Assembly (NCBI RefSeq): GCF_003946245.1
Contig: NZ_RHNN01000006.1
Location: forward strand, 62,001-126,000
Length of the DNA stretch: 64,000 nt
Reading direction: 5' to 3'
Source of the DNA: Levilactobacillus cerevisiae
GTDB lineage: Bacteria > Bacillota > Bacilli > Lactobacillales > Lactobacillaceae
The stretch's first letter is position 1; each line of letters starts with the position of its first letter. The position numbers and the translations under genes are program-made. A model generated the notes under the pieces. It did not search any database. It saw only the letters and a list, made by a program, of their open reading frames with translations, and was not told where the DNA came from. Below are positions 23,233 through 63,665 of the stretch, in pieces.

Positions 23233-23411
23233 AGAGTGGGATAAAAGGCGGTTAGCTGGTGAGCATTAAGGCTGATAGCCGGATAATCCCGGGCTTGGAT
23301 TATTTGGCTATCAGTTTTAAGCGGAGCCAGCTGCCTTTTGTCGCACGTTTCAACAATATAGCATTGGAGATACAACGTGAGTCTGGGGATTTATCCCAGA
23401 CTCTTTTTTTA
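23233..23411 (+). repeat. Structured intergenic element A, copy 1, ending in a terminator
   Basis: A long imperfect hairpin: GATAAAAGGC...AGCTGG pairs with CCAGCTGCCTTTTGTC; inside, CTGATAGCC pairs with GGCTATCAG and AATCC with GGATT around a CGGGCTT loop. Two internal-loop strands, CTGGTGAGCATTAA and TTAAGCGGAGCC, are shared by all copies. Downstream, GAGTCTGGG and CCCAGACTC plus seven T form an intrinsic terminator (23380-23411). Other copies at 25046, 46288 and 63484. Confidence 0.75.
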
Positions 23412-23616
23412 TAGTTGGCTGTACGACGCTGAAAACGACAACGTAGGTATAACCCACCGACATAGCAGAGGTAGAAGACTAAGCTATTGGCATTGTTGTG
23501 GTTAACTACCGGCTTCCCTTATACCTTGAGGGACACAATCTAGGAATATTTAGCGAAACCCCTAGCCCTTAGCACCCGATAATCCTATACTGGTAGAAAA
23601 GGGGGCGGAACATAAA

Positions 23617-25038
23617 ATGTTGAAGAAAAGTTCCGATTGTACCGAGATTTTAGTGGGTAAGGCCGCCAGTATGGACGGTTCCACCATTGTGGCACGTAAC
23701 GAGGATGGTTACGGCCCCATCAATCCAATTAAGTTTGTGGTCCACCCAGCAACGGACCAACCGGGTGCCACGTTCACGTCAATTACCACGGGCGTTAACG
23801 TTCCCTTACCCGATCATGCTTTGCGCTACACCGGCACGCCCCAGGCTGACCAGAGTGATGGCCAGTACGAAGAAGCCGGCATCAATGAATTAAACGTCGG
23901 CATGAGTGCCACCGAAACCACGGCGACCAACGCCCGCGTTCTGGGTTACGACCCACTGGTTGACGATGGGATTAACGAAGAAGCCATGGTCACCCTGGTT
24001 TTGCCATACATCAAGACTGCCAAGGAGGGTGCCCAACGCTTGGGTGCGCTGCTTGAAAAATACGGCACCGGTGAGAGCAACAGCATTGCCTTCAACGATC
24101 ATGATGAAATTTGGTACCTGGAGACGGCCGGTGGTCATCACTGGGCAGCCATGCGTTTGCCAGAAAATACTTACGCCATCGCGCCTAACCAGACGTTGAT
24201 GCAAGAGGTTGACCTCAACGACAGTGACAACTTCTTGGTTGCGACTGACCTGGTCGACTTTGTTGAAAAGAACCATTTGAACCCCACGCCTGGCACCTTT
24301 AACTTCCGCGAAATCTTCGGCACGCACGGTGAAGATGATGCGTACTACAACACGCCGCGGACCTGGTACGGCCAAAAGTTATTCAATCCAGAAATTACGG
24401 ATCAACAGCCAACCGACCAGGACATGCCATTTACCCGCGTGCCCGCTAAGAAGTTGGCGATTGAGGATGTGCAGTTCTTCTTGAGCTCACACTACAACGG
24501 CACGCCGTACGATCCATTTGGCACCTACGCTTCCGGCTCAGCCGATGACCAGAAGAAGTACCGGCCAATCGCGATGGACCGGAATCAGTGTTCCTCCATT
24601 TTGCAAATTAGAAACGATGTACCGGCCGATCACGCCGCCATTCAGTGGATCGCCATGGGCTTCTTCGCCTACGCACCTTACGTGCCATTCTTCACGAACA
24701 TCGACGACACGCCGGTTGATTACCAGAACACGACGACTTCAGTTGATGTCGAGAACGTTTACTGGTTGAATAAGACCTTGTCCGTGATTATTGAACCCCA
24801 TTTCCACGAGTATGTCGAAGCCGTTAACGCCTTCCGCGAAGGTTGCCAGTCCTATGCTCGTTCTCGGGTCGCAGCGACCGACGCCAGCATCACGGGCGAC
24901 GCGACAGCCTTCCTGACCAAGAGCAATGCCGAAACGGCGGGTGAGATTTCCAAACGAACCCACCAACTGTTCGACGACCTGGTTAAACACGGCTTGTTGT
25001 TATCCAAGACGGCTTGGGAAAAGGGTCAAAACCTGTAA
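23617..25038 (+). CDS. pepD: C69 family dipeptidase
   Basis: A 473-residue Ntn-hydrolase of the lactobacillus PepD family, which splits dipeptides in the cytoplasm. The catalytic cysteine is Cys8 in SSDCTEILVGKAAS, followed by DGSTIVARNED, the family signature. Most relatives carry the cysteine a few residues from the start, as here, and remove the leader. GGGGGCGG lies upstream of ATG 23617. The gene is flanked on both sides by same-orientation copies of element A (23233 and 25046), which could permit its loss or duplication. Confidence 0.9.
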   Translation: MLKKSSDCTEILVGKAASMDGSTIVARNEDGYGPINPIKFVVHPATDQPGATFTSITTGVNVPLPDHALRYTGTPQADQSDGQYEEAGINELNVGMSATETTATNARVLGYDPLVDDGINEEAMVTLVLPYIKTAKEGAQRLGALLEKYGTGESNSIAFNDHDEIWYLETAGGHHWAAMRLPENTYAIAPNQTLMQEVDLNDSDNFLVATDLVDFVEKNHLNPTPGTFNFREIFGTHGEDDAYYNTPRTWYGQKLFNPEITDQQPTDQDMPFTRVPAKKLAIEDVQFFLSSHYNGTPYDPFGTYASGSADDQKKYRPIAMDRNQCSSILQIRNDVPADHAAIQWIAMGFFAYAPYVPFFTNIDDTPVDYQNTTTSVDVENVYWLNKTLSVIIEPHFHEYVEAVNAFREGCQSYARSRVAATDASITGDATAFLTKSNAETAGEISKRTHQLFDDLVKHGLLLSKTAWEKGQNL

Positions 25039-25045
25039 CAAAATA

Positions 25046-25219
25046 GAGAGTGGGACAAAAGGCGGTTAGCTGGTGAGCATTAAGGCTGATAGCCGGATAA
25101 TCCCGGGTTGGGATTATTTGGCTATCAGGTTTAAGCGGAACCCGCTGCATATTGTCGCACGTTTCGACAATATAGCTTTGGAGACACAAGGTGAGTCTGG
25201 GGTTTTGTCCCAGACTCTT
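25046..25219 (+). repeat. Structured intergenic element A, copy 2
   Basis: Very similar to copy 1 over about 175 bases. The inner stem CTGATAGCC/GGCTATCAG and loop are intact, but the outer stem is damaged (ACAAAAGGC against GCATATTGT). The terminal hairpin GAGTCTGGG/CCCAGACTC remains while its T run is reduced to TT. The 5' strand GGGACAAAA still matches TTTTGTCCC in the terminal hairpin. Confidence 0.7.
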
Positions 25220-25291
25220 GGCGGCTAATTGATTGCCGCTAGAAAAAGAGTGAGTGGTGAAAAGTTGAGGATAGACTAGGAGGAGACAACC

Positions 25292-26293
25292 ATGAAGTGG
25301 ATGAAATTCATCTTGGCCAGCAGTGTGGGACTGTGTTTGTGGGGCGGCGTGACAACTGCCCGCGCAGCCAAGAAAGTCACGTTACCGGCGTATCCGAAGC
25401 AGCGGGTCTTTACGTTTAAGACGAAGGGCACCAAAGTTTACAGTTATCCGCGGGCGGCCTACCAGCACAGCGATGTGTTAGGGGCCGACCAAAGCACGAC
25501 TAAGAAGTGGACGGTCGATAAGGTGGTCACCGTGAAGGGCAAACGCTACGTGCGGCTCGCTTTGGTTAGCGCCAAAGCGTTGCCACACGGCACCATTGTC
25601 CCAAATGCCACCAAGACCAAGACAACCTTGGTCGGCGGTTACGTGGCCCTGAGCAAGCTGAAGTATCACCAACAGATTGCGCAAATGAAGGCCATGAAGA
25701 AAACCGCTTACTGGACGCCAACCACCACAACTGATTTTTGGAACATGCCCGCCAAGTCTTTGGGGAAGACGGCGGCGAACCATTACGGCCACACGTACGG
25801 CTACCAGACAATCTACGCGATTCAATCGTTGACGACCACCAGTAAAAAGCGCTATTTGTACTTTGAAACGGCGGCTGGCAAGGCGATTGGCTGGTTGCCA
25901 CAGAGCGCGGTCATCCGCGGCCAATATCCGGATCTCTTGAAACGAGAGCTGAACCGGAATTTGACAGCCGACACGACGGCGTTGACCACGGTGGATAAGG
26001 CCGGTCACGTCAAGGTTGGCGTGGCATTGAAGAATGGCCAAGTCCAACGGGTGGCCCTGTTGAAGCAAAACAGTACCACGGCCGTCTATGATTTTAAGGA
26101 CGGCAAGGCGGTCAAACTAACGACGCGCACATCAGCGGGCAAGGTCAAGCAGTCCGTAGCGATGACCCAAACAACCACGAACCTGACGTTCAAGGCCCAA
26201 TCGGACTTTGACATTCAGGGGTACACGTACCAGGTGAAGGTCACGCCGGCCGGTAGGGTCAGTGTCCTGAGCGTTGGTGGGTGGATTGCTTAA
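25292..26293 (+). CDS. Secreted lactobacillus surface protein of unknown function
   Basis: A 333-residue protein with a clear signal peptide (SVGLCLWGGVTTARAA, cleavage likely after ARA). The mature part is basic and threonine-rich, with SH3-like or SLAP-like repeats suggested by TKGTKVYSYPRAAYQHSD and KGKRYVRLAL near residues 45 and 80, and GKAIGWLPQSAV near 200. Such segments often bind cell wall polymers. No catalytic motif is visible. The start has AGGAGGAG 8-15 bases upstream. I do not recognise a named family. Confidence 0.65.
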   Translation: MKWMKFILASSVGLCLWGGVTTARAAKKVTLPAYPKQRVFTFKTKGTKVYSYPRAAYQHSDVLGADQSTTKKWTVDKVVTVKGKRYVRLALVSAKALPHGTIVPNATKTKTTLVGGYVALSKLKYHQQIAQMKAMKKTAYWTPTTTTDFWNMPAKSLGKTAANHYGHTYGYQTIYAIQSLTTTSKKRYLYFETAAGKAIGWLPQSAVIRGQYPDLLKRELNRNLTADTTALTTVDKAGHVKVGVALKNGQVQRVALLKQNSTTAVYDFKDGKAVKLTTRTSAGKVKQSVAMTQTTTNLTFKAQSDFDIQGYTYQVKVTPAGRVSVLSVGGWIA

Positions 26294-26306
26294 GTTAAAG
26301 TAAATG

Positions 26307-26345
26307 AAAATCCGGTCGCTGCGTCTTGGCTGACCGGATTTTTTG
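26307..26345 (+). terminator. Intrinsic terminator
   Basis: AAAATCCGGTC pairs with GACCGGATTTTTT after the surface protein gene. Confidence 0.8.
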
Positions 26346-26401
26346 GCGTCCTTGACTGACAGCCAGCTCTAAGTGTTAAGCTAAACGCGAGGTGAAAGAC
26401 A

Positions 26402-26959
26402 ATGGCAAAAACAGAGCTACAAAAATTAGCAGCCGGCGAGCCTTACCATTTTCTAGACGACGAGGTGGCCGCACGAAAGGCCCAAGCCGCAAAGCTGTGT
26501 CAGGAGTTCAACGCGATTCCAGCCACTGATCCCGCCGCTCAGACGGCTAAAATCAAGGAAATCTTGGGCAGTCACGGTGAGTGGGTTTCCGTTCAGGCCA
26601 CGTTCAACTGCGATAACGGCCAGAACATCCACGTTGGCGAGGACTTCTTGAGTAATTACAATCTCACCATCTTAGACATTGCGCCGGTGACGATTGGTAG
26701 CCACGTGATGATTGGGCCCAATGTGGATATTTACACGGTCAATCATCCCCTGACGCCAACCGGTCGGCGAGAGTATCTGGCGCAGGCAACACCAGTCACC
26801 ATCGGCAATGACGTTTGGATCGGTGGCAAGGTGGCCATCATGCCCGGCGTGACGATTGGCGATAACGTGGTAGTTGCGGCCGGTGCCGTGGTCACCAAGG
26901 ATGTCCCAGCAAACACGTTGGTCGGCGGCGTCCCGGCTAGAAAACTGAAAATGCTGTAA
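26402..26959 (+). CDS. Sugar O-acetyltransferase (maltose/galactoside acetyltransferase type)
   Basis: A 185-residue left-handed beta-helix acetyltransferase of the LacA/Maa/NodL type, which moves acetyl from acetyl-CoA to sugars. The N-terminal Mac domain ([14 protein letters not shown]) is followed by hexapeptide repeats; the catalytic histidine is in [12 protein letters not shown] near residue 115, and [29 protein letters not shown] marks the helix. A GAGGTGAAAG site precedes ATG 26402. It is one of three related acetyltransferases in this window (also 47814 and 53979). Confidence 0.88.
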
Positions 26960-26961
26960 TC

Positions 26962-27002
26962 AAAAATCCTGGTAGCCAATGATGACTATCCAGGATTTTT
27001 TG
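26962..27002 (+). terminator. Intrinsic terminator
   Basis: AAAAATCCTGGTAG pairs with CTATCCAGGATTTTTT. Confidence 0.85.
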
Positions 27003-27132
27003 AGTTCTATAGAAAGATGAAATGTTGGCATCGCCCTCTACACGGCAGGGATATGACACTTGAATATCGACAACATTGTCTAAGAATGCAGGCCCACGCC
27101 TCGTCAGATGGACTGTGATCACAGCATCGTCA

Positions 27133-27340
27133 TGTTGAAGAACAAGATTAACCGGAGGAGGCCAGAGATGCAGGCAGCTGTGACAACGGTGTTAGCTGGG
27201 AACCAGCTTACAGCGTGGGACGTGTTTGGAGACTGGCGAATTTTGCCAGGCTTCAAACCGAGCCGGAGGACCGCCTCTCAGGCCGTAGGCGGTCCCCATA
27301 GCAGCCGGAATCTCTGGCAGCCGCAGGTGGCAATTTACCG
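27133..27340 (+). ncRNA. Structured element C, copy 1 (candidate RNA)
   Basis: About 200 bases closely similar to 63732-63945. A closing stem GCCAGAG (27161-27167) with CTCTGGC (27312-27318) encloses three stems: GCTGT...ACAGC with inner AGCTGG/CCAGCT; GTTTGGAGACTGGC with GCCAGGCTTCAAAC; and GGACCGCCT with AGGCGGTCC. GTGG/CCGC at the end forms a short last hairpin. In the other copy several stems differ on both sides yet still pair. A 52-codon frame on this copy is destroyed in the other, arguing against a protein. It ends at the thiZ stop. Confidence 0.65.
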
Positions 27341-28090
27341 CTAATCGGGATTGGCACTCGCCAAGCTATCCGCACGCAACAACTCGTAGATTTCGGCTTT
27401 CAAAGGTGCCTGCGCCGCTAACCAGTCCCGATTGCGGACCGCTGGCGTCAACGCGATGTCTTGCACCACGTGGGCTGGGCGCGCGGAGAGCACCAGAATG
27501 CGGTCGGACAGGTAGATGGCCTCCTCGATGTCGTGGGTGACCAACAGGGTCGTTCGTTTTAAATTCGCCGGCAGCCCCAGTAGCCAATCCTGCATCAAGC
27601 CCCGGGTCATCGCGTCCAGTGCGCCAAACGGCTCATCGAGCAACCGGTAGTTGGCGGGGTTCAACATCGTGCGTAACAGAGCCACCCGTTGCCGCATCCC
27701 CCCGGAAAGCTGGTGGGGGAGAAAGTGGCGGTACGGCAGCAGGCCACAGATCGTGAGGAGCTCCGTCACCCGTTCTTGATCGATTGGTTGATGGTTGATC
27801 CGTTGATACAGCGTGATATTCTGATCGACGTCGTACCACGGAAACAACATGTCCTCCTGTGGCAAGTAACTGAACGTGGTGTTGAGCCCGGTGATGGCGT
27901 GACCGTCGACGGCGAGGGTCCCCATGGACGGCTGTAACAACCCCGTCAACAATTTTAAAATGGTCGATTTACCAGCCCCGCTCGGCGCAATCAGCGACAC
28001 GAAGCTGCCATCCGCAATCGTGGCGGTGACGTCGTTTAAGATGTCCAGCTTATCCAGCGTCAGGCCAACGTTTTTCAGCGTGATCGTCAT
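27341..28090 (-). CDS. thiZ: Thiamine-precursor ABC transporter ATPase
   Basis: A 249-residue ATPase of the nitrate/taurine/HMP subfamily. Walker A is APSGAGKST near residue 36, the signature LSGGMRQRVALL, Walker B YRLLDEP, and the H-loop VTHDIEEAI. Last gene of the three-gene operon controlled by the TPP riboswitch, two bases after thiY. It should power uptake of the pyrimidine moiety of thiamine (HMP) or a related precursor. The stop codon directly abuts element C. Confidence 0.87.
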   Translation of the reverse strand: MTITLKNVGLTLDKLDILNDVTATIADGSFVSLIAPSGAGKSTILKLLTGLLQPSMGTLAVDGHAITGLNTTFSYLPQEDMLFPWYDVDQNITLYQRINHQPIDQERVTELLTICGLLPYRHFLPHQLSGGMRQRVALLRTMLNPANYRLLDEPFGALDAMTRGLMQDWLLGLPANLKRTTLLVTHDIEEAIYLSDRILVLSARPAHVVQDIALTPAVRNRDWLAAQAPLKAEIYELLRADSLASANPD

Positions 28091-28092
28091 GC

Positions 28093-29097
28093 TTATTTAC
28101 CGACGTACTGGTTGGTGTAGAGCGTGTCCGCCGGAATGGCCTTCTTGATGAGACCGTATTCCTTCATGAAGCCGGTGTAGTTGTTCCAGACCTTGGCGTC
28201 CATTTTGCCCCAGTTGGCCGCGTCATCCGTGTAGTTCGCCGACAGGAACGCTTGCGACTCTTCTAAAAAGCTCAAGTCATAGTCCTTGGCATACTTATGG
28301 AGAATCTTGGCGTCCGCCTTGGGATGAGCGATGACGTCCTGGTAGCCTTTCTTGGTGGCGCTCATGAATGCCTGCACCAGCTTGGAATTTTGCTTGAGCT
28401 GGGTATTGTTGGTGATGATCACCGGCGTGTAGTAGTCTAAACGCTTGTCCAGCTGGCGGAGCGGCATGTAGTTCACCTTGATGCCGTCGTCCTTCGCCCG
28501 AATAACGTCCCAGCCTTGGAACCACCACTGGAGGTCGTTCTTCTTGCCCAGGCTCTTGGGACCATCGCCGGTCGCACCGACAATTTTAAGTGACTTCGGG
28601 TTGACGTGGTCCTTGCTCATGACTGCCTTCAGGACGGCCTCTTCACTAGGCGTTTGCCAACCGGCATAGGTCTTACCCGCGAAATCCTTAGGTGAGGTGA
28701 TGCCGCTCGACTTCAGCGATACGAAACCGGACGTGTTGTGCTTGATCACGGTTCCGATGGCCTTCACGGGGATGTTCTTGCCATCGGCGTGGGCGTAGGT
28801 GACATCCTCTTGATAGCTGACACCAAATTGGGCCTTGTTGGCACCAACCATCCCGATACTGGTGGCGTTATCGCCGGGTTCAATAATTTTGACGTTTAGG
28901 CCGGCAGCCTTGAAATACCCCTTGTCCTTCGCCACGTAGAGCCCGGTGTGGTTGGTGTTGGGAACGTAGTCGAGCACAATGGACACGTCCGTCAACTTCT
29001 TAGCTGATTTGGAATCGGATGATTGACTCTTAGACGTGCCGCACGCAGTCAGCGATAGTAGGACTGGCACCAGTAACCAAAGTTTCGTTAATTTCAT
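28093..29097 (-). CDS. thiY: Thiamine-precursor ABC transporter binding lipoprotein (NMT1/THI5-like)
   Basis: A 334-residue binding protein with lipobox LTACG. The NMT1/THI5 fold is clear from VLDYVPNTNHTGLYVAKDKGYF near residue 42, then EPGDNATSIGMVGANKAQFGVSYQED. ThiY proteins bind N-formyl-aminopyrimidine or HMP; the upstream TPP riboswitch supports a thiamine precursor rather than nitrate or sulfonate. Its start overlaps the thiX stop by four bases, implying translational coupling. Confidence 0.88.
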   Translation of the reverse strand: MKLTKLWLLVPVLLSLTACGTSKSQSSDSKSAKKLTDVSIVLDYVPNTNHTGLYVAKDKGYFKAAGLNVKIIEPGDNATSIGMVGANKAQFGVSYQEDVTYAHADGKNIPVKAIGTVIKHNTSGFVSLKSSGITSPKDFAGKTYAGWQTPSEEAVLKAVMSKDHVNPKSLKIVGATGDGPKSLGKKNDLQWWFQGWDVIRAKDDGIKVNYMPLRQLDKRLDYYTPVIITNNTQLKQNSKLVQAFMSATKKGYQDVIAHPKADAKILHKYAKDYDLSFLEESQAFLSANYTDDAANWGKMDAKVWNNYTGFMKEYGLIKKAIPADTLYTNQYVGK

Positions 29098-29846: not shown

Positions 29847-29864
29847 GTAAAACCACCTTTCCAT

Positions 29865-30003
29865 CAAAAAAGCCCTAACCGGGGGAGTGTCACCGCCAGG
29901 ATAGAGCATCCGTGCGTTTCTCCCTGCGCCAGTGTTAACTGACAGGTTCAATGGGTCAAAGTTCACAACTTCCTCTCGTGCCGTTTAACGGTATCCCCAG
30001 AAA
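29865..30003 (-). promoter_or_regulatory. TPP riboswitch with downstream terminator
   Basis: On the minus strand the THI-box core is readable: GGGGATACCG, then ACGAGAGG (in place of the usual CTGAGAGG), GACCCATTGAACCTG, AACACTGGCGCAGGGA. About 40 bases later CCTGGCGG can pair, with G-U pairs, with CCGGTTAGG followed by six T (plus-strand A run near 29866-29871), a terminator that TPP binding should favour. It controls thiXYZ by feedback. Confidence 0.92.
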
Positions 30004-30020
30004 CTTTTTAAGTTGTTGTT

Positions 30021-30049
30021 AGTATAGCATGCTCGTGAAAACGGGACAA
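30021..30049 (-). promoter_or_regulatory. Promoter of the TPP riboswitch transcript
   Basis: On the minus strand TTGTCC (30049-30044), a 17-bp spacer and TATACT (30026-30021), about 20 bases before the riboswitch. Confidence 0.75.
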
Positions 30050-30430: not shown

Positions 30431-30433
30431 GTA

Positions 30434-30463: not shown

Positions 30464-30464
30464 C

Positions 30465-30494: not shown

Positions 30495-30541
30495 TACAAG
30501 CACTTCAGCTAAAACAGCTGAACGCAAGGAGATGATCGACG

Positions 30542-30583: not shown

Positions 30584-30584
30584 C

Positions 30585-33014: not shown

Positions 33015-33195
33015 GACTCGCCTTACCGGGCGGGGATAATAGGCTGGAACGCTGGGGGAGGGCGCCCGAAGCCGTGGTGCGGTCTTCGGGCTTGCTTTGA
33101 GCCTCATAGTGCGAGTCTCAAAGACACCATTTTCTAAGTAGACCTCTTAGAAAATCCCCGGCTGAGCCTATTATCCCCGCCCTCACGGCTAAGAC
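33015..33195 (+). repeat. Structured intergenic element B, copy 1
   Basis: A perfect 17-bp outer stem, GGGCGGGGATAATAGGC (33028-33044) with its complement (33166-33182), encloses three hairpins: GCCCGAAG/CTTCGGGC, CTTTGAG/CTCAAAG and ATTTTCTAAG/CTTAGAAAAT. Conserved single strands are CTGGAACGCTG after the first arm and CGGCTGA before the last. It lies right after the EamA gene in the same sense. Confidence 0.75.
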
Positions 33196-33444: not shown

Positions 33445-33625
33445 CGTGTCAGCCGTGAGGGCAGGAAAAATATATTCAGCCGGGGATTCTCTAAGTGACT
33501 TGCTTAGAGAATGGTGTCTTTGAAACGCGGTTTTAGCGGTTCAAAGCAAGCGCGAAGACCGCACTTTGGATTCGGGCGTCCTCCCCCAGCGTTCCAGTAT
33601 ATTTTTCCTGCCCGGTAAGGCGCGG
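33445..33625 (-). repeat. Structured intergenic element B, copy 2 (inverted)
   Basis: Same architecture as copy 1, on the minus strand. The outer stem is now GGGCAGGAAAAATATA (33459-33474) with its complement (33598-33613): different sequence, still perfectly paired. Inner hairpins include ATTCTCTAAG/CTTAGAGAAT and CTTTGAA/TTCAAAG. It follows copB in the sense of that gene. Confidence 0.75.
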
Positions 33626-44191: not shown

Positions 44192-44324
44192 ATTTAGGTC
44201 TCGCTTTCGTCTAAATTAGGATGTTGCTGGTAAGCCACGATGGTTTGCGTTTTAGCATAACCTAATTGTAGGCGGAAACCAGCCGCAACACAATGGTAAC
44301 CGGTTACACTAGTGGGTGACTGCC

Positions 44325-44500
44325 GGCTTGCCGTTCGCCAAATTTAGGCTGGAACGCTGTCGGTAGGACGGCCCAAGCCGAAGGACGGTCTTGATCCTCG
44401 CTTTGAACCGCCAAACTCGGCGTTTCAAAGTCGCCATTTTCCAAGAAACCCCAATGGAAAATCCTACGGCTGAGCCTAAATTTGGCTCACTCATGCCTAC
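44325..44500 (+). repeat. Structured intergenic element B, copy 3
   Basis: Outer stem GCCAAATTTAGGC (44337-44349) with its perfect complement (44474-44486). Inside are CTTTGAA/TTCAAAG extended by CGCC/GGCG and ATTTTCCA/TGGAAAAT. The conserved strands CTGGAACGCTG and CGGCTGA are in the same places as in copies 1 and 2. The rest of the 44192-44610 gap shows no gene. Confidence 0.75.
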
Positions 44501-44610
44501 GTTGATCAGGCAAATTTCAGTTGTTGAATGCTCACCAGAATAGTAATTTTTACCATGACGTCTCTAATAGCTGCCAGTCGTTCACTGTCATGATGGGTGA
44601 GGAACACGAA

Positions 44611-45434: not shown

Positions 45435-46280
45435 ATGCCAACAATTACGGATACATTTGATTTGAATAACGGACTCAAGATGCCCAAGGTTGGGTTTGGA
45501 ACCTGGCAAACGCGCCCAGGCAAGGAAACGGTCGATGCCGTCAGTAACGCACTGAAGGCCGGTTACCGCTTCATTGATACCGCCAAGGCGTACGAAAACG
45601 AACAGAGTGTCGGCGAAGCCATCGCTGCTAGCGACGTGGCCCGCGAAGACATCTTTGTCCAAACGAAACTGCCCGCTGAATCCAAGAGTTATGACGCCGC
45701 ACTGGCTGATTTTGACAGCAGTTTAGCCGCCTTAAACTTGGACTACGTGGATTCTTACATTATTCACGCGCCATGGCCATGGGCCCAAATGGGTTCCAAC
45801 CATGACGCAGATAATCGCGACGTTTGGCGTGCGATGCAAGACATCTATGACAGTGGCCGGGCCAAGTCAATTGGAGTCTCGAACTTCAATTCACATGACC
45901 TGGAAAACCTGTTAACGTGGGATGGCTTGACAGTGACGCCTGCCGTTGACCAGATTCAATACTACGTCGGTCATACGCAGGACTCCATCGTCAAGACGGC
46001 TGAGGCCAACAAGATCGTGGTCCAAGCCTACTCACCATTAGCAACCGGTGGCTTGGTAGACAGTCCAGAACTGGAACGCGTCGCTGGCAACTACGGCGTC
46101 TCAATTCCACAACTGGCTTTACGTTTCGTCATCCAAAATGGCGTAGCGCCACTACCAAAGGCCCGCGCAATGGCCCACGTGGAAGCCAACGCCCAATTAG
46201 ATTTCGAAATCAACGACAAGGACATGGCCTTCTTGAACCGCCTGAGCGACGCCAATGGCTGGCATCCGGTGGGAGATTAG
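45435..46280 (+). CDS. Aldo/keto reductase
   Basis: A 281-residue NADPH-dependent TIM-barrel reductase of the 2,5-diketogluconate-reductase type. The catalytic tetrad is present: Asp and Tyr in FIDTAKAYENE, Lys in QTKLPA and His in YIIHAPW. VGVSNFNSHDL-like SIGVSNFNSHDLENL and PLPKAR near the end fit the family. AAGGAGG precedes the ATG. The MerR-type promoter upstream points to induction by reactive aldehydes or similar stress. Followed by element A copy 3. Confidence 0.9.
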   Translation: MPTITDTFDLNNGLKMPKVGFGTWQTRPGKETVDAVSNALKAGYRFIDTAKAYENEQSVGEAIAASDVAREDIFVQTKLPAESKSYDAALADFDSSLAALNLDYVDSYIIHAPWPWAQMGSNHDADNRDVWRAMQDIYDSGRAKSIGVSNFNSHDLENLLTWDGLTVTPAVDQIQYYVGHTQDSIVKTAEANKIVVQAYSPLATGGLVDSPELERVAGNYGVSIPQLALRFVIQNGVAPLPKARAMAHVEANAQLDFEINDKDMAFLNRLSDANGWHPVGD

Positions 46281-46287
46281 GGAAAAG

Positions 46288-46402
46288 AGCGCGGAGCAGG
46301 GCGGTCAGCTGGCGAGCATTAACGGCGCTAAGTGAATAACCCCGGGCTTGGGTTATTTGCTTAGCGTTGTTAAGCGGAACCAGTTGCCCTGCGGAGCGCG
46401 TT
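46288..46402 (+). repeat. Structured intergenic element A, copy 3
   Basis: GCAGGGC...AGCTGG pairs with CCAGTTGCCCTGC; inner stem CGCTAAG/CTTAGCG and AATAACCC/GGGTTATT with loop CGGGCTT. These stem sequences differ from copies 1, 2 and 4 on both sides. The strands CTGGCGAGCATTAA and TTAAGCGGAACC are conserved. Confidence 0.75.
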
Positions 46403-46505
46403 TCAGAGGCTGCCAGGACCAGGATATAATGGCGAGAGCCAGTCCAAGTCCCTAAGCTATCCCGAACCAAACAAGTTTCCAATAACGATGATTTAAAGCA
46501 ACGCT

Positions 46506-46609
46506 AAAGAATCAAGGTATCGAGGGTATCAAGATACTAAAGAATCAAAGTACTAAGGTACCAAAGACACAAAGTCTCAAAGTACCAAGAACCAAAGCCC
46601 CAAAGAATC
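46506..46609 (+). repeat. Degenerate tandem array of an 8-base unit
   Basis: Thirteen units with consensus AAAGNNNC run without interruption: for example AAAGAATC, AAGGTATC, AAGATACT, AAAGTACT, AAGGTACC, AAAGACAC, AAAGTCTC, AAAGTACC, AAAGCCCC. One unit has nine and one seven bases. The purine start is constant while the middle varies. The stretch is not translated in any good frame. Confidence 0.7.
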
Positions 46610-56953: not shown

Positions 56954-56967
56954 AACACATCACCTCA

Positions 56968-56979
56968 TACAGAACTGTA
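56968..56979. promoter_or_regulatory. Possible antitoxin operator
   Basis: TACAG-AA-CTGTA, 15 bases upstream of the antitoxin start. Confidence 0.4.
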
Positions 56980-57040
56980 ACACATTAAGCCTACGTTGTA
57001 CCACAAATATGCTCTGACGGCGTTAAGCAAATCTGAGGGC

Positions 57041-58792
57041 TTACTTAAACGTCTTATTCGTAAACGACTGCACAGCCCCGGTCTTAGCCTGCTTGTTGAC
57101 GTTGGCGGTTAATTTCACTTCGTCGCCGGCCTCGAGTAGCGCGGCCTTCGGGTAATCGCCCGTGCCGACCGACCAGAGGTAATCGTTGCCCTTGATGGCG
57201 AACAGAACGCTCTGGCTACTACCGTTGGGCACGATGGCAACCCGGGAGACGATACCGCTGACCTTGGTCAATTTCGTGGCCGTGGAACTGGCAGTGGATC
57301 CCGCCGCGGCGAGTTGCACGCGGTACTGGTCCAACGCCTGGGCGGCCGTGGTGGCGTAGGCCTTCACGCTTTGGTCGGCCGCCTTGATGTAGGCGTAGCT
57401 ACGGAAGGCACCAGTGGAATCGAGCAGGGAAACAATCCAGGTCGGCGTGCCATCAATGTTGTACATAATGGGCATCGTGGCCGACCATTTCTGGGCAACG
57501 TATTCCTTCTCGGCAATCTTCTTGGCCCCGGTACTGTCCATGACCCCGATATTTTTTCCGGTGTAGTAAGTCAGCGTCCCGGTCCGCGCGTTGATCATGG
57601 AGTAACCCATGGTCGAATCGGCGCTGGTCTTGGGCGAGGTGAAGTCGTTGAAGTAGGAAATATTACCGTTTTTATCAGCGACGGGTGTCACGCCGTCTTC
57701 GGTCCCGTTGTCGTTGGGCAGCTTGACGCCGGTCTTGTTAAAGTAGGCGTTAAAGAAGCCATTGCCGTAGCGGCCGAAAATCTCATTCATTTCCGCAGCG
57801 GTTGACGAGGCAATCGATTCATTAATAAATGCGGGGGCACCGGCCGCCGTGTACAGCTTGGTGGCGCCGGTCTTGGCGTTTAACACGACCACGTGGAGGC
57901 TACGGTAGTTGATCCGTCTTGAGACACCGCGGGCTTTGTAGACGGTTTGGATGAAGAAGGGTTCACCCTGATCGTTGACTTCGAGTTGGGGTTGGCCTTC
58001 CTGCACCCAGCTGGGGAAACGGTTATAGATGACCCGTTGTGCGTCGTCGAACAGGTAGGCGCTCGGGGTGTATTTCATGGACTGCTTCACGAAACGCGGT
58101 TCGGCGTTGACGTTGGTCGCGTCGATGATAAAGTAGCCCGGCGTGTTGCGCGCCCGTTGCCAGCGCCAGAAACCGTCGAACTCGACCGGCGCAATGTAGA
58201 CGGTCTTGCCCTTGACGACCTGAGTCTGGAGGTCGCCCAGCTTGTAGTAAGACGTGTTGGGCACCGTGCTCATGGCCTTGTTCATCTTGTTACGCACAGT
58301 CTTGGGTGAAATGGCGATGGGCGTGGCGTTCTTGTCCAGCAGTGGCGCGGTTTCAACCGTCTTGATGCGTAAAGAATTGTAGACGGCCTTGACGCCAAAA
58401 CGCGTTTGTAAGGAGCCAAACAGACCGAGGACGACCAAGAGTGCTAGGACGCCAGCCGCAAGCTTGGTACCAAAATTAATGCGGGGCAGGCGGAAGTTGA
58501 AGCGTTCCTCAAAGAGGTTGCGCGGGCGTTTTCCTTTGCGCTCGACTTCGACTTTGGGCTGCGGACTACTGATTAATAGTAGGGGCAGGTAAAGGATGCC
58601 GTAAATCAAATTCATGCTGATTAGGCTGGCTGGCGTTTTGCTGGGGAGTGAGCTGAAAACGATGCCCAGCGCAACTAAGTAAAAGATAACGTAAGTGCTG
58701 ACGAGTAACTGCCAGCGGTTGGGGCGTTGGATGCAGGCCAGAACGGTCATGCCCAACGCGGTCAGGGTACCAAATAAGGCGACTAAAAGCAT
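57041..58792 (-). CDS. Large membrane-anchored protein of unknown function
   Basis: A 583-residue protein I do not assign. Helices lie near residues 3-20, 28-48, 58-77 and 108-128; the remaining ~450 residues are hydrophilic and probably extracellular. In that part FDGFWRWQRARNTPGYFIIDATN and YRSLHVVVLNAKTGATKLYT suggest repeated beta-rich domains, and a Ser/Thr/Ala-rich linker (GSTASSTATK) precedes a final OB-like domain of about 75 residues. Similar lactobacillus proteins are sometimes labelled cell-shape determining, without proof. AAAGGAG precedes the ATG. Confidence 0.7.
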   Translation of the reverse strand: MLLVALFGTLTALGMTVLACIQRPNRWQLLVSTYVIFYLVALGIVFSSLPSKTPASLISMNLIYGILYLPLLLISSPQPKVEVERKGKRPRNLFEERFNFRLPRINFGTKLAAGVLALLVVLGLFGSLQTRFGVKAVYNSLRIKTVETAPLLDKNATPIAISPKTVRNKMNKAMSTVPNTSYYKLGDLQTQVVKGKTVYIAPVEFDGFWRWQRARNTPGYFIIDATNVNAEPRFVKQSMKYTPSAYLFDDAQRVIYNRFPSWVQEGQPQLEVNDQGEPFFIQTVYKARGVSRRINYRSLHVVVLNAKTGATKLYTAAGAPAFINESIASSTAAEMNEIFGRYGNGFFNAYFNKTGVKLPNDNGTEDGVTPVADKNGNISYFNDFTSPKTSADSTMGYSMINARTGTLTYYTGKNIGVMDSTGAKKIAEKEYVAQKWSATMPIMYNIDGTPTWIVSLLDSTGAFRSYAYIKAADQSVKAYATTAAQALDQYRVQLAAAGSTASSTATKLTKVSGIVSRVAIVPNGSSQSVLFAIKGNDYLWSVGTGDYPKAALLEAGDEVKLTANVNKQAKTGAVQSFTNKTFK

Positions 58793-58993
58793 AGGTGAAC
58801 TCCTTTTATGTATGGCTGAGGGATGGTGCGTGCTTCTCTAGTTTACCGTAGTTAGTGGGCGGGGGATAGGGGAACAGCGGGATTGGTGGTTGAAGACTAA
58901 AACGGGGAATGATTGAGAGCGTAGATAATATATGAAAATGTGATGATCGTTGTAAAAAAGAGCGAATAGTATATAATTATTGAAAATTCGTGA

Positions 58994-59020
58994 CATTTAG
59001 TGTTAAAATAACGTTAAATG
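58994..59020. promoter_or_regulatory. Inverted repeat upstream of dinJ
   Basis: CATTTAGTGTTA (58994-59005) and TAACGTTAAATG (59009-59020) are complementary with two G-U-type differences. The site sits between a TATAAT at 58972 and the antitoxin start, where RelB/DinJ proteins bind. No other feature is seen in 58793-58970. Confidence 0.55.
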
Positions 59021-59036
59021 AAGTGGAGATGATTTG

Positions 59037-59324
59037 ATGGATACCTCAGCTAAGGACCGGTTAACTATTCAGGTTGATCATGAACGTAAAATTGCCGCGC
59101 AAGAAATTGCAAATAATCTGGGAACCGACTTGCCTAATTTACTCAATATTTTTATTGCTCGAGTGGTCAAAGAAAAGGGCTTACCCTTTCAACTTGTTGA
59201 AAATCCAAGGGATGAAGAACTAGAGCTCGCACTTAAGCAAGCTAGAGCAGGTGAAACAAACCGCTATTCATTTTCTGAGTTTGACCAGTACTTGAAAGAT
59301 TTGGAAGCTAAAGAGAATGCTTGA
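59037..59324 (+). CDS. dinJ: RelB/DinJ-family antitoxin
   Basis: A 95-residue antitoxin: RLTIQVDHERKIAAQEIANNLGTDLPNLLNIFI is the ribbon-helix-helix, followed by VVKEKGLPFQL, the DinJ signature. The charged tail RDEELELALKQARAGE fits the toxin-wrapping helix. ATG 59037 has GTGGAG upstream. Its stop overlaps the start of a YafQ-type toxin gene that is inactivated, so it is now a solitary antitoxin. Confidence 0.85.
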   Translation: MDTSAKDRLTIQVDHERKIAAQEIANNLGTDLPNLLNIFIARVVKEKGLPFQLVENPRDEELELALKQARAGETNRYSFSEFDQYLKDLEAKENA

Positions 59325-59611
59325 TCACGTAGAGACAACAACGATATTTGCGAACGATATTTGATCGAAATATTAAGAAATTAGCCAAAAAACATTATGA
59401 TCTGACGAAATTGCGCAGAGTGATTCAAATTATTTAAATGGAAGATCAGTTGACCTTGCAAAAGGATTATCACCTGCACACATTAAAGGGAGACAAAGCA
59501 GGAATTTACGAACTTCACCTTGAACGAAATTGGTTACTCTTGTATCAAATTACAGGAACGACCGAGCTGACATTGCTCTTGTTAAGGACGGGTACGCACG
59601 ATATTATTTAA
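59317..59611 (+). pseudogene. yafQ: YafQ-family toxin, inactivated twice
   Basis: ATG 59317 overlaps the dinJ stop. The start reads MLDHVETTTIF and then shifts frame because of a near-perfect 13-base tandem duplication (AACGATATTTGCG at 59340-59352, AACGATATTTGAT at 59353-59365). Without one unit the frame continues FDRNIKKLAKKHYDLTKLRRVI, typical YafQ. A second lesion is an in-frame TAA at 59435-59437. After it the frame continues LQKDYHLHTLKGDKAG and LERNWLLLYQI to the end at 59611. Confidence 0.85.
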
Positions 59612-59636
59612 CGTACCCATTGCAGTTGTTTTAAAT

Positions 59637-59695
59637 AAAAACGTCCTCACTCCAGCCTTCTTCGTCACGAAAGAGGCTGGAGTGAGGACGTTTTC
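59637..59695. terminator. Long bidirectional terminator
   Basis: AAAACGTCCTCACTCCAGCC pairs with GGCTGGAGTGAGGACGTTTT around a loop with a smaller CTTTCGTGACG-like stem. It separates the antitoxin unit from the convergent MerR gene. Confidence 0.85.
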
Positions 59696-59752
59696 AATCG
59701 GAGGAATCATGACAGATGGGTGAGATTGAACTCACCTGAAGTTGGCAGTGAA

Positions 59753-60148
59753 TTAGTCAGTTTGCTCACTCGTAGAACTCAGCCGCGCCTTCTCTGCTTG
59801 CAGCCGCGCAATCTTTTTCGTCAGGAAATCCTTTTGCAACGCAATGGCTGCGATTCTTTGGCCGAGTTGGTGGTCCAGGTCTTGCAGGAACGCAATCCCG
59901 GTGTCGTAGGACTCTGGGGTGATATCAGCTTGCTGGAAAAGTGCCGAGAATGCCTTGATGTCAGCAATCGAAGCTCCTAACGCGCGTAAATGAACGATTT
60001 TGGTGAGGGCATCTAAATCAGCGGTGCTATATTCACGACGGCCCTGGGCGTCACGCTGAATTGGCGCTAGGAGTCCCTCCTTTTCATAGTAGCGCAGGGC
60101 GTCGTAGGTGACATTGAATTGGTGAGCGACTTCTTTGATGGTTTTCAT
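59753..60148 (-). CDS. MerR family transcriptional regulator
   Basis: A 131-residue regulator: TIKEVAHQFNVTYDALRYYEKEGLLAP and GRREYSTADLDALTKIVHLRALG form the DNA-binding domain; a long dimerisation helix and a Gln/Lys-rich tail follow. No conserved cysteines. ATG 60148 has AGGAG at the right distance; the longer frame crosses the promoter. It is divergent from the SDR gene at 60246, whose promoter has a 19-bp spacer, and probably activates it. Confidence 0.87.
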   Translation of the reverse strand: MKTIKEVAHQFNVTYDALRYYEKEGLLAPIQRDAQGRREYSTADLDALTKIVHLRALGASIADIKAFSALFQQADITPESYDTGIAFLQDLDHQLGQRIAAIALQKDFLTKKIARLQAEKARLSSTSEQTD

Positions 60149-60177
60149 TTTGATAGCTCCTCTTTTAACTTTTTGGC

Positions 60178-60208
60178 TTGCGCTAGTGTAACACCAGCGT
60201 GATAGGAT
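60178..60208 (+). promoter_or_regulatory. MerR-type promoter of the SDR gene
   Basis: TTGCGC (60178-60183), 19-bp spacer, TAGGAT (60203-60208). The spacer holds CGCTAGTG (60181-60188) and CACCAGCG (60192-60199), a dyad with one mismatch. Confidence 0.7.
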
Positions 60209-60245
60209 GGCCATACTAAAAGTTTCAAGAAAGAGGTTATTTGGT

Positions 60246-61004
60246 ATGGTAAATCAAAAAATTATCACGTTAGTCACTGGTGGCAATCGGGGGATGGGCT
60301 TAGAAATCGTCCGGGAGTTAGCACAGCACGGGCAGCAAGTCCTGCTGGGAGCGCGCGATTTAGCCAAGGGGCAAGCCGCGGCCGCAACGCTGCAGCAAGA
60401 GAACTTAGACGTGACGGCTGTGGCGTTGGACGTGACGAATCCGGATTCGGTCAGCCAAGCCGCCGCAGAAATCAAGCAGACTTATGGCTATTTAACGGTT
60501 TTAATCAACAACGCCGGGGCCGTTTTTGATGCCAGACAGCTGCCCTCCGAGGTCGATCAGTCTAAGCTTCGCGCGGATTTTGACCTGAATTATTTTGGCC
60601 TGATTGACGTCACGCAAAAGCTGTTGCCGTTACTCAAACTGGCGGAGCAAGCCAAAATCATCAACATTTCCAGTATGATGGGGTCGTTGACCGAGGCGTT
60701 GAACCCCGAATCCGCCGTATCACGGGCGATTGCGGTCGGGTACCAGTCGGCTAAGGCGGCGGCCAACATGTTTACCGTTCAGCTGGCCAAGGAGCTTCAG
60801 CGCGCAGGGCTACCGGTGACCGTGAACGCTATTGATCCGGGGATGGTTGCGACGCACTTTGGTGGGGTCACCCCCGAGATGGCGCAGAAGATGGGCGCTA
60901 ATCCCGTGGCGGCCGGTGTTGCTCGAACGGTTGAATTGGCCACGGACTTTACGAACCTGGCGACGGGAACGTTTAGTAACAGTGACGGGCCAGTTGCTTG
61001 GTAG
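60246..61004 (+). CDS. Short-chain dehydrogenase/reductase
   Basis: A 252-residue classical SDR. The cofactor motif is TGGNRGMG near residue 12, with NNAG at residue 92; catalytic residues are Ser in INISSMMGS, and YQSAK (Tyr and Lys) near residue 170. Carbonyl reduction in the cytoplasm is expected; PxPxxG-type ending (NPVAAGVARTVELA) resembles carbonyl reductases. ATG 60246 has AAGAGG upstream; the longer frame covers the promoter. Forms a regulator-target pair with the MerR gene. Confidence 0.9.
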   Translation: MVNQKIITLVTGGNRGMGLEIVRELAQHGQQVLLGARDLAKGQAAAATLQQENLDVTAVALDVTNPDSVSQAAAEIKQTYGYLTVLINNAGAVFDARQLPSEVDQSKLRADFDLNYFGLIDVTQKLLPLLKLAEQAKIINISSMMGSLTEALNPESAVSRAIAVGYQSAKAAANMFTVQLAKELQRAGLPVTVNAIDPGMVATHFGGVTPEMAQKMGANPVAAGVARTVELATDFTNLATGTFSNSDGPVAW

Positions 61005-61142
61005 GCGGGTTTCGTTATAAATTTAAAAATAAAGGCTAAGTTTGTTTACGTTGGTTGCCTTTTCCTGTATCTTAGGGAATAGAGAAACAGTCATTGTGAC
61101 TGGCAAAATTGGAGATCCGCTACCGTAAGTGCGGTGTTTAAT

Positions 61143-61172
61143 GGCGAGGCTGGTTTACAGTCTCGTTTTTTT
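61143..61172 (+). terminator. Intrinsic terminator
   Basis: GCGAGGCTG...CAGTCTCG then TTTTTTT, about 140 bases after the SDR gene. Confidence 0.7.
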
Positions 61173-61249
61173 GACGATTTTTTTAAGAGCGATTGACAGG
61201 GCATCAGGTGACAGTAAGCCAGGTTTATCAAACAAACTTAGAGTCACGC

Positions 61250-61283
61250 AAAAAGGCGCTTGAAAAAATTCAAGCGCCTTTAC
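61250..61283 (-). terminator. Terminator of the 30-aa membrane protein gene
   Basis: AAAGGCGCTTGAA pairs with TTCAAGCGCCTTT; on the minus strand a T run follows. Confidence 0.8.
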
Positions 61284-61309
61284 CATTCAATTTTCACGAA
61301 ACGGTTAAT

Positions 61310-61402
61310 TTACCCACGGAACATGAAGATGCCCCGAACAATTTCGGCACCAATCAAAACAATCATTGCGGACCAGGTTAATAATGTGGCTAAGCTCCCC
61401 AT
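61310..61402 (-). CDS. Small single-helix membrane protein (30 aa)
   Basis: A 30-codon frame on the minus strand starting at ATG 61402, with AGGAGG 8 bases upstream and a terminator right after the stop. The peptide has one hydrophobic helix (LATLLTWSAMIVLIGAEIV) and ends GIFMFRG. The strong ribosome site and terminator make it a convincing gene despite its size. Similar tiny proteins occur in lactobacilli; function is unknown. Confidence 0.7.
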   Translation of the reverse strand: MGSLATLLTWSAMIVLIGAEIVRGIFMFRG

Positions 61403-61551
61403 AATGCTGACCTCCTTGTGCACGTTTTAACTAACTTCATTGTACGCCGATCCCGGGAAACTAGCAATGGGTGCGCTTACATTTCGACTGGTTTAACCGC
61501 CTTTGATTAGGAATATAACGGTTTTTGACGCCAGCACTTAGTCCTAAATAG

Positions 61552-62400
61552 TTAAGAGTTCGTGACCGCAATCAAATCCGCAAACGTGGCCGTACTGATT
61601 CCGGGTTCGACCCGTAGCCGGGAGAGGTTATAGCGCCCCTCTGAGAGCTTGGCGAAGCCCTCCTGGGTCGTCAGTGCCAGCTTGTAGCCGGCCTTTTTCG
61701 CTAACTTGTGGGTGGTCTTGTTGGCCCGCCCAGCTGGATAACAGACCATCTGCGTGTCCTGCTTGAGGTTGGTGTCGAGCCACTGCTTCGACGCCAGCAA
61801 TTCCTGTTTCTGCTGAGCGGCCGTCAAAGCGTTGAGGTCTAAGTGTTGCACGGTATGGCTAGCAAAATCCACGCGACCAGTGGCCTTCATTGATCGCATT
61901 TGCGCTAACGACAAGTGGTTTGACTTGTGCGTGAAGCCCGTAATCGCGTTGATGGTAACGTGTTGCCGATATTTTTTGAGCGTCGGTAACAGCTTACGAT
62001 TGTCCTGGTAGGCGTCGTCCAGCGTAATCCAGACGACCTTCTTCTGGGGCACAGTGTTGGTTGTGAGCGCCCGAATGGCCTGGGCCGTGGTCAATGTCTG
62101 ATAATGATGGCGTTTCAAATAAGTCAGCTCCGCTACCGCCTGCTTCTTCGGCACGCAGAGTTGGTTGCCGCTAGAAATGCTGTGATACATGAGAATCGGT
62201 AACTTCAGCGGGTGTTTTAACTTCACCCAGGCCTTCGTCGTTTTGATCTCGGTCGCAGACACGTCGTCTTGAACCACATCATTTTCCGTTGCTGGCGCCG
62301 TCCGAACGTTGGTCTTCCGCATTTGCGTGAGCGTGACGGTGCCGATAATTAAGGCTACCAAGGCAATACAGCCACCGAGTAGCCACCACTTTTTTCGCAT
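61552..62400 (-). CDS. Polysaccharide deacetylase (membrane-anchored)
   Basis: A 282-residue carbohydrate esterase 4 protein. A signal anchor (LLGGCIALVALIIGTVTLTQ) is followed by a linker and the NodB domain: LPILMYHSIS near residue 68, ITLDDAYQDN (motif 1, DD present, with Ala-Tyr in place of the usual Gly), SHTVQHLDL (metal-binding H-x3-H), and CYPAGRANKTT. It should remove N- or O-acetyl groups from cell wall or capsule polymers outside the cell. The gene is alone. Confidence 0.87.
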   Translation of the reverse strand: MRKKWWLLGGCIALVALIIGTVTLTQMRKTNVRTAPATENDVVQDDVSATEIKTTKAWVKLKHPLKLPILMYHSISSGNQLCVPKKQAVAELTYLKRHHYQTLTTAQAIRALTTNTVPQKKVVWITLDDAYQDNRKLLPTLKKYRQHVTINAITGFTHKSNHLSLAQMRSMKATGRVDFASHTVQHLDLNALTAAQQKQELLASKQWLDTNLKQDTQMVCYPAGRANKTTHKLAKKAGYKLALTTQEGFAKLSEGRYNLSRLRVEPGISTATFADLIAVTNS

Positions 62401-62471
62401 AATGATTCCCCCAAAAATCGATTTACTTGTGTTACATCTATTATAAGAGGGTTAATCGAAAAATGCATGAA

Positions 62472-63296
62472 TTAATCAGCGCGCTGGCTTAATCGGCGGT
62501 AGTAGTCGATGGAGTCAGGGGGGAGGTTCAGGGCCGCAATCACCTCACTGTCAGTCTTTTGCGGGTGCCGGCGGAGATAGTTAACTAAGTAACCTTGATA
62601 GAGGACAGTGGGGCTGAGCGCAAAGCCGACGAGGGCTTCGTCTGGCTTCAAATACTTGTGGAGGCCCGGCAGTGTCAGGTGGGGATCCGCCGCGGCACGT
62701 TGCTTTAGAAACCAATCGTCGCAGGCAAAACGCTGTTGAAGCGGCGTGATGAATTCCTGAAACGTTTGGAGAAAGGGTTGGACGGCTGCGGGCCAGGTCG
62801 CGGGGGCTAATTTTGCCGTCACGCCGGGCTTGAGGAAGCTCTGAACCGGGTAGCCTTGGGCGACCAGCAGGAGGGTCAGCCGGGTGTAAACGTGTAGCCG
62901 GCCATCTGCCAGTAACGCGTCCAGGTCGTCCACCCACCGGTAATTCAGGGGTTGCGGCGCTTGCTTGGGCTTGCTTTTTAGGTCCAGCGTCGGCAGGTAG
63001 GGTGTCCACCCGTGAGAGAAGAGAAACTTGAAGTAGATGTTGAGGTGGGACAGAATCTTGTTGTAGGTCTGATTTTGAATTTGCCGCGCGGTCAGCAGCA
63101 TGCTCAAATACTGATCGACGTCTTGTGTTTGGAGCTGGTTGACCTGGTGGGTGCGCTCGTAAGTCGGATTGAAGTTCTCTAAGTAGTGGAAGAAGTCAGT
63201 CAGCGTGGCGGTGTATTCGTCACGGGTGGCCGCGGCCATTGACCGGTCGTTGAGCAGCCGGTTGAAGGCGTCTTGATACGGATAGGCTTGCGGCAT
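62472..63296 (-). CDS. Tyrosine-recombinase-like protein, probably without catalytic activity
   Basis: A 274-residue protein with the SAM-like core-binding domain of XerC/D integrases: AATRDEYTATLTDFFHYLENF and YNKILSHLNIYFKFLF (residues 20-95). The C-terminal part has the right length but not the usual residues: where the first catalytic Arg is expected the segment reads TLLLVAQGYPVQSF. The later His-x-x-Arg box is not apparent. A tyrosine pair lies in DSIDYYRRLSQ near the end. It could be a DNA-binding relative of Xer or a decayed enzyme. Confidence 0.6.
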   Translation of the reverse strand: MPQAYPYQDAFNRLLNDRSMAAATRDEYTATLTDFFHYLENFNPTYERTHQVNQLQTQDVDQYLSMLLTARQIQNQTYNKILSHLNIYFKFLFSHGWTPYLPTLDLKSKPKQAPQPLNYRWVDDLDALLADGRLHVYTRLTLLLVAQGYPVQSFLKPGVTAKLAPATWPAAVQPFLQTFQEFITPLQQRFACDDWFLKQRAAADPHLTLPGLHKYLKPDEALVGFALSPTVLYQGYLVNYLRRHPQKTDSEVIAALNLPPDSIDYYRRLSQRAD

Positions 63297-63440
63297 CTAA
63301 CCGCCTCACTTTCTGTTGGATTGGTCGCTTGCGGATAATTACTTTAACCTAGAGTATACCACGGTGACTGTTAAATTGGCGGCGTAAACCTGCTACATGG
63401 TTGAGATATAACGCGAATATTGGCAACACGGTCTAAACCT

Positions 63441-63665
63441 GCCGGCTTACCGTTCGCCAAATTTAGGCCGGAACGCTGTGGTAAGAGTGTGGCAGATGGC
63501 GGTTAACTGGTGAGCATTAACGGTGATAACCGAATAATCCTGGGCCTGGATTGTTTGGTTATCAGTGTTAAGCGGAGCCGGTTGCCATTTGCCACACGTT
63601 TCGGAAACGTGAAATCAGCGGACCAATTCCCACGGCTGAGCCTAAATTTGGCTCACTCACGCCTA
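63441..63665 (+). repeat. Structured intergenic element B, copy 4, with element A inside
   Basis: Outer arms as in copy 3: GCCAAATTTAGGC (63456-63468) with its complement (63640-63652), CGGAACGCTG after the first and CGGCTGA before the second. The internal hairpins of B are missing; in their place is a complete element A (63484-63605). Confidence 0.75.
63484..63605 (+). repeat. Structured intergenic element A, copy 4 (nested in B)
   Basis: GTGTGGCAGATGGC...AACTGG pairs with CCGGTTGCCATTTGCCACAC; inner TGATAACC/GGTTATCA and AATAATCC/GGATTGTT around TGGGCCT. The conserved strands CTGGTGAGCATTAA and TTAAGCGGAGCC are present. Outer and inner stems differ from the other copies on both sides. Confidence 0.75.

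Follow-up and report, generated by a model that had tools for sequence, protein, structure and literature searches.

What is the element that recurs four times along a 64,000-nucleotide (nt) stretch of the Levilactobacillus cerevisiae genome (contig NZ_RHNN01000006.1, positions 62,001 to 126,000 of the forward strand; hereafter the window), as hairpins whose stems differ in sequence and still pair? A sequence-only reading of the window had proposed a dispersed hairpin under selection for its structure. All four of its copies are present where it had placed them, and the stem pairs and internal-loop strands it quoted are correct. The copies begin with AGAGTG or AGAGCG at 23233, 25047, 46286 and 63484, and each folds as a single long hairpin, with z from -6.8 to -10.1 and an equally good fold in 0 of 200 shuffles. 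The CGGGCTT loop that was also described is common to copies within the source genome and is not family-wide. In general the element consists of a hairpin of ~110 nt and a CACGTTT-type tail, often with a terminator-like hairpin ~26 nt beyond.

The element is not confined to the window. The two core strands, searched as GAGCATTAA-N32..62-TTAAGCGGA, gave 65 matches in the 3.38-Mb genome and the reversed pattern gave 0, which excludes a chance origin of the matches. A covariance model built from 67 diverse copies (R1) returned 116 matches at E <= 0.01, including five antisense echoes of listed copies and some fragments; this figure is a lower bound, since only 150 of 807 candidates were scored. 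About a hundred copies are scattered over this genome. Among 59 copies compared, 23, including copies 1 and 2 of the window, form one subfamily, whose common sequence opens with AGAGTG, takes in the long hairpin, the tail and a second, terminator-like hairpin over ~175 nt, and then ends. Subfamilies of 6 and 5 copies have different surroundings.

The arms of the hairpin change together. In an alignment of the 67 diverse copies (A1) to a structure of 44 pairs, 90.4% of the cells pair, against 64.7% after shuffling, and 37 of the 44 pairs show two-sided change, with all four Watson-Crick types seen at many of them. The covariation score was 0.670, compared with 0.192 (sd 0.008) for shuffled alignments and at most 0.164 when partners were slid; the shuffle ignores the relatedness of copies and the slide retains it. 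An alignment of 54 copies that includes relaxed and distant ones scored 0.794, against 0.192 shuffled and at most 0.141 slid, having been made to the model and hence leaning towards its structure. The proposal that both sides of the stems change while the internal loops are kept is thus upheld, and covariation is not lost in the larger alignments. Since the two arms vary in concert around a small constant core, selection appears to guard the folded shape. By eye, the outer stem of copy 3 differs from its counterpart in a relative (G029) by two double substitutions that preserve pairing, and from that in another (G014) by more. Not all covariation need be stepwise compensation in place, however: at one site (site B; loci L003, L005 and L068) the flanks and the outer stem are identical, and L068 differs entirely in its inner and middle stems, which suggests that another copy has replaced or converted the one in L068.

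Three parts are the steadiest: on the 5' strand a 4-nt bulge, which reads GNTT in 37 of 67 copies; a helix of ~6 bp that opens with an A-U pair in 57 of 67; and a GA/NGA internal loop next to a G-C step. GA-GC-A-UUAA and UUAA-GC-GGA are invariant in the exact-core set, including the UUAA/UUAA stem in A1, because the copies were chosen by the exact core pattern. In copies not selected by it the UUAA/UUAA stem itself covaries, and those found by the model without the pattern carry UUAG/CUAA, UUAC/GUAA, UUGC/GCAA or CUAAC/GUUAG; GA/GCA loops also occur among them, and in a few the core is lost or altered. Two likenesses were considered for the core. That to integron attC sites (GTTAAGC against GTTRRRY) was dropped because the base preceding TTAA varies, and that to a kink-turn because, with tandem G-A pairs possible in the GA/NGA loop, the bulge has only one base.

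To see how widely the element occurs, we searched at several depths. The exact core is present in 32 of 35 Levilactobacillus genomes, with 1 to 65 copies apiece, and, when lengthened by one C, in 49 of 301 Lactobacillaceae genomes from 11 of 40 genera; the reversed control gave 0 in both. R1 matched five genomes besides the source genome in a set of 250 Bacilli that includes it. Matches were found in four Bacilli families beyond Lactobacillaceae, which we label f2, f5, f13 and f18. A second model (R2) matched 13 of 18 f5 genomes (up to 79 matches), 12 of 41 f13 genomes (up to 24) and 12 of 29 f2 genomes (up to 94); R2 includes copies from f5, f13 and f18, so matches close to these are expected, and f2 lies outside it. 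A sample of 398 genomes across the phylum gave matches only in the source genome and one f18 genome, and says little about absence because just 8 candidates per genome were scored. Strict filters applied to this sample, to the R1 search of the 250 Bacilli and to one of the R2 family searches. By eye, the matches in all four families have the same core features at about the same spacing. Tails of the CACGTTT or CACCGTTT type accompany many of the copies in f5 and f13 and some of those in f2. In f2 the 5' strand of the loop is one base short, and the bulged A is missing from most copies in f13. The R2 matches in f5, f13 and f2 often stand head to tail, with a period of ~123-125 nt, and such arrays were noted in f2, f5 and f18 (L282/L301, and many places in genomes G998, G966, G563 and G522).

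Some copies reside on plasmids. An annotated L. curvatus plasmid carries a whole copy, which scores 84 bits with the model (the first sequence match was weak, E 0.01) and whose AGAGTG start lies 9 nt past a coding sequence; apart from this weak match, copies 3 and 1 had no convincing match among plasmids, and neither did single representatives of f2, f13, f5 and f18. A copy from another locus (L166) matches nine plasmids, seven from Lactiplantibacillus, one from Pediococcus and one from Leuconostoc. Three were inspected: two hold the 5' half only, and in the Leuconostoc plasmid (L335, ~4000) the middle of the copy is deleted. The same half element, the 5' arm plus core, stands behind a sucrose operon in a Lactiplantibacillus plantarum plasmid (L333, ~3810) and a Pediococcus acidilactici plasmid (L334, ~5746). 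Carriage by phages was considered and rejected: 17 IMG/VR stretches match the exact pattern, but we take these matches as chance because the model yields just one weak match (21.3 bits, E 0.0094).

The element is oriented with respect to genes. In 71 of 187 copies the start lies no more than 15 nt from the stop codon of a sense-strand gene, compared with 5 of 187 in the mirror-image antisense position. Of 150 copies whose flanks were long enough, 55 begin at -3 to +11 nt relative to the stop codon of an upstream gene in the same orientation, and 3 occupy the mirror-image antisense position no more than 15 nt from a stop codon. Codirectional gene pairs flank 66 copies in the sense and 30 in the antisense orientation, convergent pairs flank 45 and divergent pairs 5, and the remainder have no called neighbour. 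The same holds in f2, where 16 of 37 copies are near a sense stop codon and 2 of 37 near an antisense one (37 of 47 matches, after dropping a locus fetched twice, tandem neighbours and one cut locus). Genes were called with a longest-open-reading-frame script at a minimum of 80 amino acids and no gene finder. Within the window, copy 2 starts 8 nt past the stop codon of a 473-amino-acid gene (23617-25038), and copy 3 starts 5 nt past that of a 281-amino-acid gene (45435-46280). A short reading frame, with counterparts in three relatives, ends in a TAA 9 nt ahead of the start of copy 1; as the gene calls do not include this frame, the copy was scored as distant from a stop. Of the 150 copies, 46 are followed within 130 nt by a terminator-like hairpin with a T run, starting at a median of 26 nt downstream; the count is 17 for the antisense side and 2.6 for mononucleotide shuffles, which preserve base composition only.

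Comparison of equivalent sites among relatives shows presence and absence of the element. The site of copy 2 is empty in 28 of 28 other Levilactobacillus loci, by eye and by model (one of them, L067, covers only ~120 nt behind the gene), and where copy 1 stands, the stop codon is followed in three relatives by a plain terminator only. The gene that precedes copy 3 is followed by a counterpart of it in G029 and in G014, and by none in G016. At site C the element is present in two loci (L013 and L014), and the same gene is followed only by a terminator in two others (L011 and L012); at site D one locus (L027) carries it between stop codon and terminator, where two others (L026 and L028) have the stop codon and terminator alone; at site A the hairpin interior is lost in L068, and L006 holds a remnant at most. 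No target-site duplication was discernible at the compared sites, which are diverged and whose exact junctions are not fixable. The best reading of these data is that the element is mobile. REPs accompany RAYT transposases, and the Y1 transposase PF01797, among whose matches the RAYT subtype is not separable from IS200 TnpA, occurs in 23 of the 35 genus genomes. It is absent from G002 (44 exact-core copies), G020 (32), G008 and G033 (20 each) and present in G024 (0 copies); as its presence does not track the copies, we rejected it as the mobiliser.

The two mismatch types that distinguish the strands also bear on the nature of the fold. In the 67-copy set, G-U pairs outnumber A-C pairs 200 to 47, and of 35 decided columns 29 favour G-U (p 1.2e-4 by sign test; columns share ancestry). 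With an aligner that scores both mismatches alike, the G-U:A-C ratio was 105:23 in the source genome and 130:42 in other Lactobacillaceae. Because G-U exceeds A-C, it is the fold of the gene-sense strand that matters in Lactobacillaceae, and this suggests most simply that the fold acts there as RNA. Deamination of the coding strand could be an added source of the excess.

Taken together, we judge it on balance somewhat probable that the element is a mobile hairpin cassette of 3' untranslated regions (UTRs), transcribed as the tail of host mRNAs, with a core recognised by a protein found throughout Bacilli. The hairpin would then fold as RNA at the end of the message, and the partner that binds its core, a protein or nuclease, would be shared among Bacilli. 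Judging from its position and from reports on bcr and REP repeats, it may shape the 3' end of the mRNA by hindering 3'-to-5' decay, and a copy within about 15 nt of a stop codon perhaps slows the ribosome at termination, an effect reported for REPs of E. coli. That relatives hold only a terminator at some sites suggests that the cassette enters beside terminator hairpins or replaces them. Several observations weigh against this explanation. Of the copies placed relative to genes, 79 of 150, and 21 of 37 in f2, are not within 15 nt of any called stop codon or lie in antisense or other gene arrangements, and 104 of 150 are without a terminator-like site in a strict scan. G-U to A-C counts in the other families are 10:9 (f5), 16:12 (f13), 44:32 (f2) and, from few copies, 9:3 (f18), and selection at the RNA level is not clearly seen there. 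Most copies at a given site are absent from relatives, which makes a benefit to the host gene doubtful. Finally, no mobiliser was found, the search having covered Y1 in the 35 genus genomes.

The strand specificity of the fold could also reflect a strand-moving enzyme that needs it, as in hairpin elements of single-stranded DNA of the REP/RAYT or IS200/IS605-end type, for which the place behind stop codons would be a harmless landing. Dispersal, tandem arrays and steady unpaired bases at fixed stem places would all agree with such an element, and a hairpin formed by one DNA strand would also fit the G-U excess. We nevertheless think it unlikely, given that proximity to stop codons in the sense orientation only is hard to get from DNA landing alone and that Y1, the one single-strand enzyme searched for, does not track the copies. 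Between RNA and hairpin DNA, the Lactobacillaceae data lean to RNA without settling the choice.

Complementarity might even arise without selection, if template switching during replication copied one arm onto the other and gene conversion spread the result. One copy in the source genome (L226, 322-447, minus strand) looks as if this had happened, its bulged A and internal loop being paired out, and the full exchange of the inner and middle stems within unchanged flanks and outer stem at site B is also in keeping with it. Such a process, however, should remove the bulge and the GA/NGA loop, both of which persist in most copies and in other families, and it predicts no excess of G-U over A-C, which in Lactobacillaceae is 3 to 4.6-fold; we regard it as distinctly improbable. 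An ordinary non-autonomous DNA transposon (miniature inverted-repeat transposable element, MITE), in which a DDE transposase reads the ends and the hairpin is merely long terminal inverted repeats, would account for the short unit, the many copies and the sharp AGAGTG 5' end of the 23-copy subfamily, but is very improbable, since the outermost stem is variable and covarying rather than fixed, the steady parts are internal unpaired bases, and no target duplication is discernible at the compared, diverged sites.

The mobile cassette that we favour has no counterpart in Rfam 15 at gathering score, either at the copies in the window or in 20 copy-bearing loci, where only two tRNAs were matched; below the gathering score copy 1 had only weak, chance-like matches. 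The sequence-only reading had likewise been unable to name an RNA family for it, and the covariance search it proposed, in Lactobacillaceae and Rfam, gave the many matches described above and no Rfam family. Our literature search yielded no description of the element in Lactobacillaceae, with most subscription papers outside its reach, so novelty is not proven.

As far as we can tell, the element may work like the EFAR/Efa-1 repeats of Enterococcus faecalis, the closest known kind, which it resembles in architecture. EFAR was reported in 2007 to be mobile, with stem-loops (terminators) as its targets. At sites C and D and at that of copy 1, relatives have terminators only, at junctions that cannot be fixed exactly. 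Efa-1 is described as an intergenic repeat of 163 bp in 65 copies, with a pair of adjacent stem-loops (PMC2267715, Cozzuto et al. 2008). By description, the likeness lies in the intergenic location, the dozens of copies and the two adjacent stem-loops in a unit of 163 bp versus ~175 nt; this architecture is seen in the 23 copies of subfamily 1, and the second hairpin is not present in all other subfamilies. A constant core, a position at stop codons and covariation are not mentioned in the accessible parts of PMC2267715. The bcr1-bcr3 repeats of the Bacillus cereus group are MITE-like, ~147-167 bp long and often parts of UTRs, and bcr3 within a transcript correlates with its rate of decay (PMC3446304, PMC2267715); again by description only, they share with the present element a short, MITE-like form and its probable location in UTRs, and differ in being described as group-specific. 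E. coli REP/BIME sequences are dispersed palindromes, of which some lie no more than 15 nt from a stop codon and are reported to stall ribosomes there (PMC12306157, PMC3733652); by the same sources they measure 20-40 bp, in contrast to the ~110-nt hairpin here, whose distribution a Y1 transposase does not track.

The copies in the window are listed in Table 1. The 473-amino-acid reading frame adjoining copies 1 and 2 has relatives in Levilactobacillus at 83-97% amino-acid identity.

Table 1. Copies of the hairpin element in the window (position 1 is the first nucleotide of the 64,000-nt stretch)
Feature	Coordinates	Strand	Description
Copy 1, whole unit	23233..23410	+	long hairpin ~23236-23346, CACGTTT tail, terminator-like second hairpin with T run ~23379-23410
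Copy 1, 5' core strand GAGCATTAA	23261..23269	+	
Copy 1, 3' core strand TTAAGCGGA	23317..23325	+	
Copy 2, whole unit	25047..25219	+	long hairpin ~25050-25160, terminator-like second hairpin ~25193-25217
Copy 3, long hairpin plus tail	46286..46407	+	long hairpin ~46289-46399
Copy 4, long hairpin plus tail	63484..63605	+	long hairpin ~63487-63597; within larger repeat 63439-63671

Other repeats occur in the same stretch. The larger repeat, present at 63439-63671 and 44320-44505, has long complementary ends (GCCAAATTTAGGC ... GCCTAAATTTGGC), which enclose copy 4 at 63439 and a different sequence at 44320; five near-identical hairpin copies of the source genome (L092, L112, L121, L122 and L126) share the larger-repeat frame of copy 4. 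On the 3' side of copy 3, at ~46500-46590, there is a run of degenerate short repeats resembling CAAAGTAC/CAAGGTAT. An inverted repeat with 177-nt arms (33019-33195 and 33446-33622), 80% complementary and spaced by 250 nt, lies between two reading frames, and another repeated block (27119-27343 and 63716-63947) is 81-90% identical across 80 and 140 nt. The only Rfam match over the gathering score in the window is a thiamine pyrophosphate (TPP) riboswitch on the minus strand at 29904-30009.

A wider reading, which we put forward only as a tentative possibility, is that a single deep family of structured selfish elements spans at least five Bacilli families and lives as the 3' UTRs of host mRNAs, that a host protein binds its constant core, that its spread needs the RNA fold, and that EFAR-like repeats are local branches of it. 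Repeats that seem separate and species-specific would then be joined into one structural family, with a testable core and a searchable model. The element is a mobile one that often lands a few bases past stop codons in the sense orientation, where it could set the ends of mRNAs, and this makes the function and the mobilisation of palindromic repeats testable in food bacteria.

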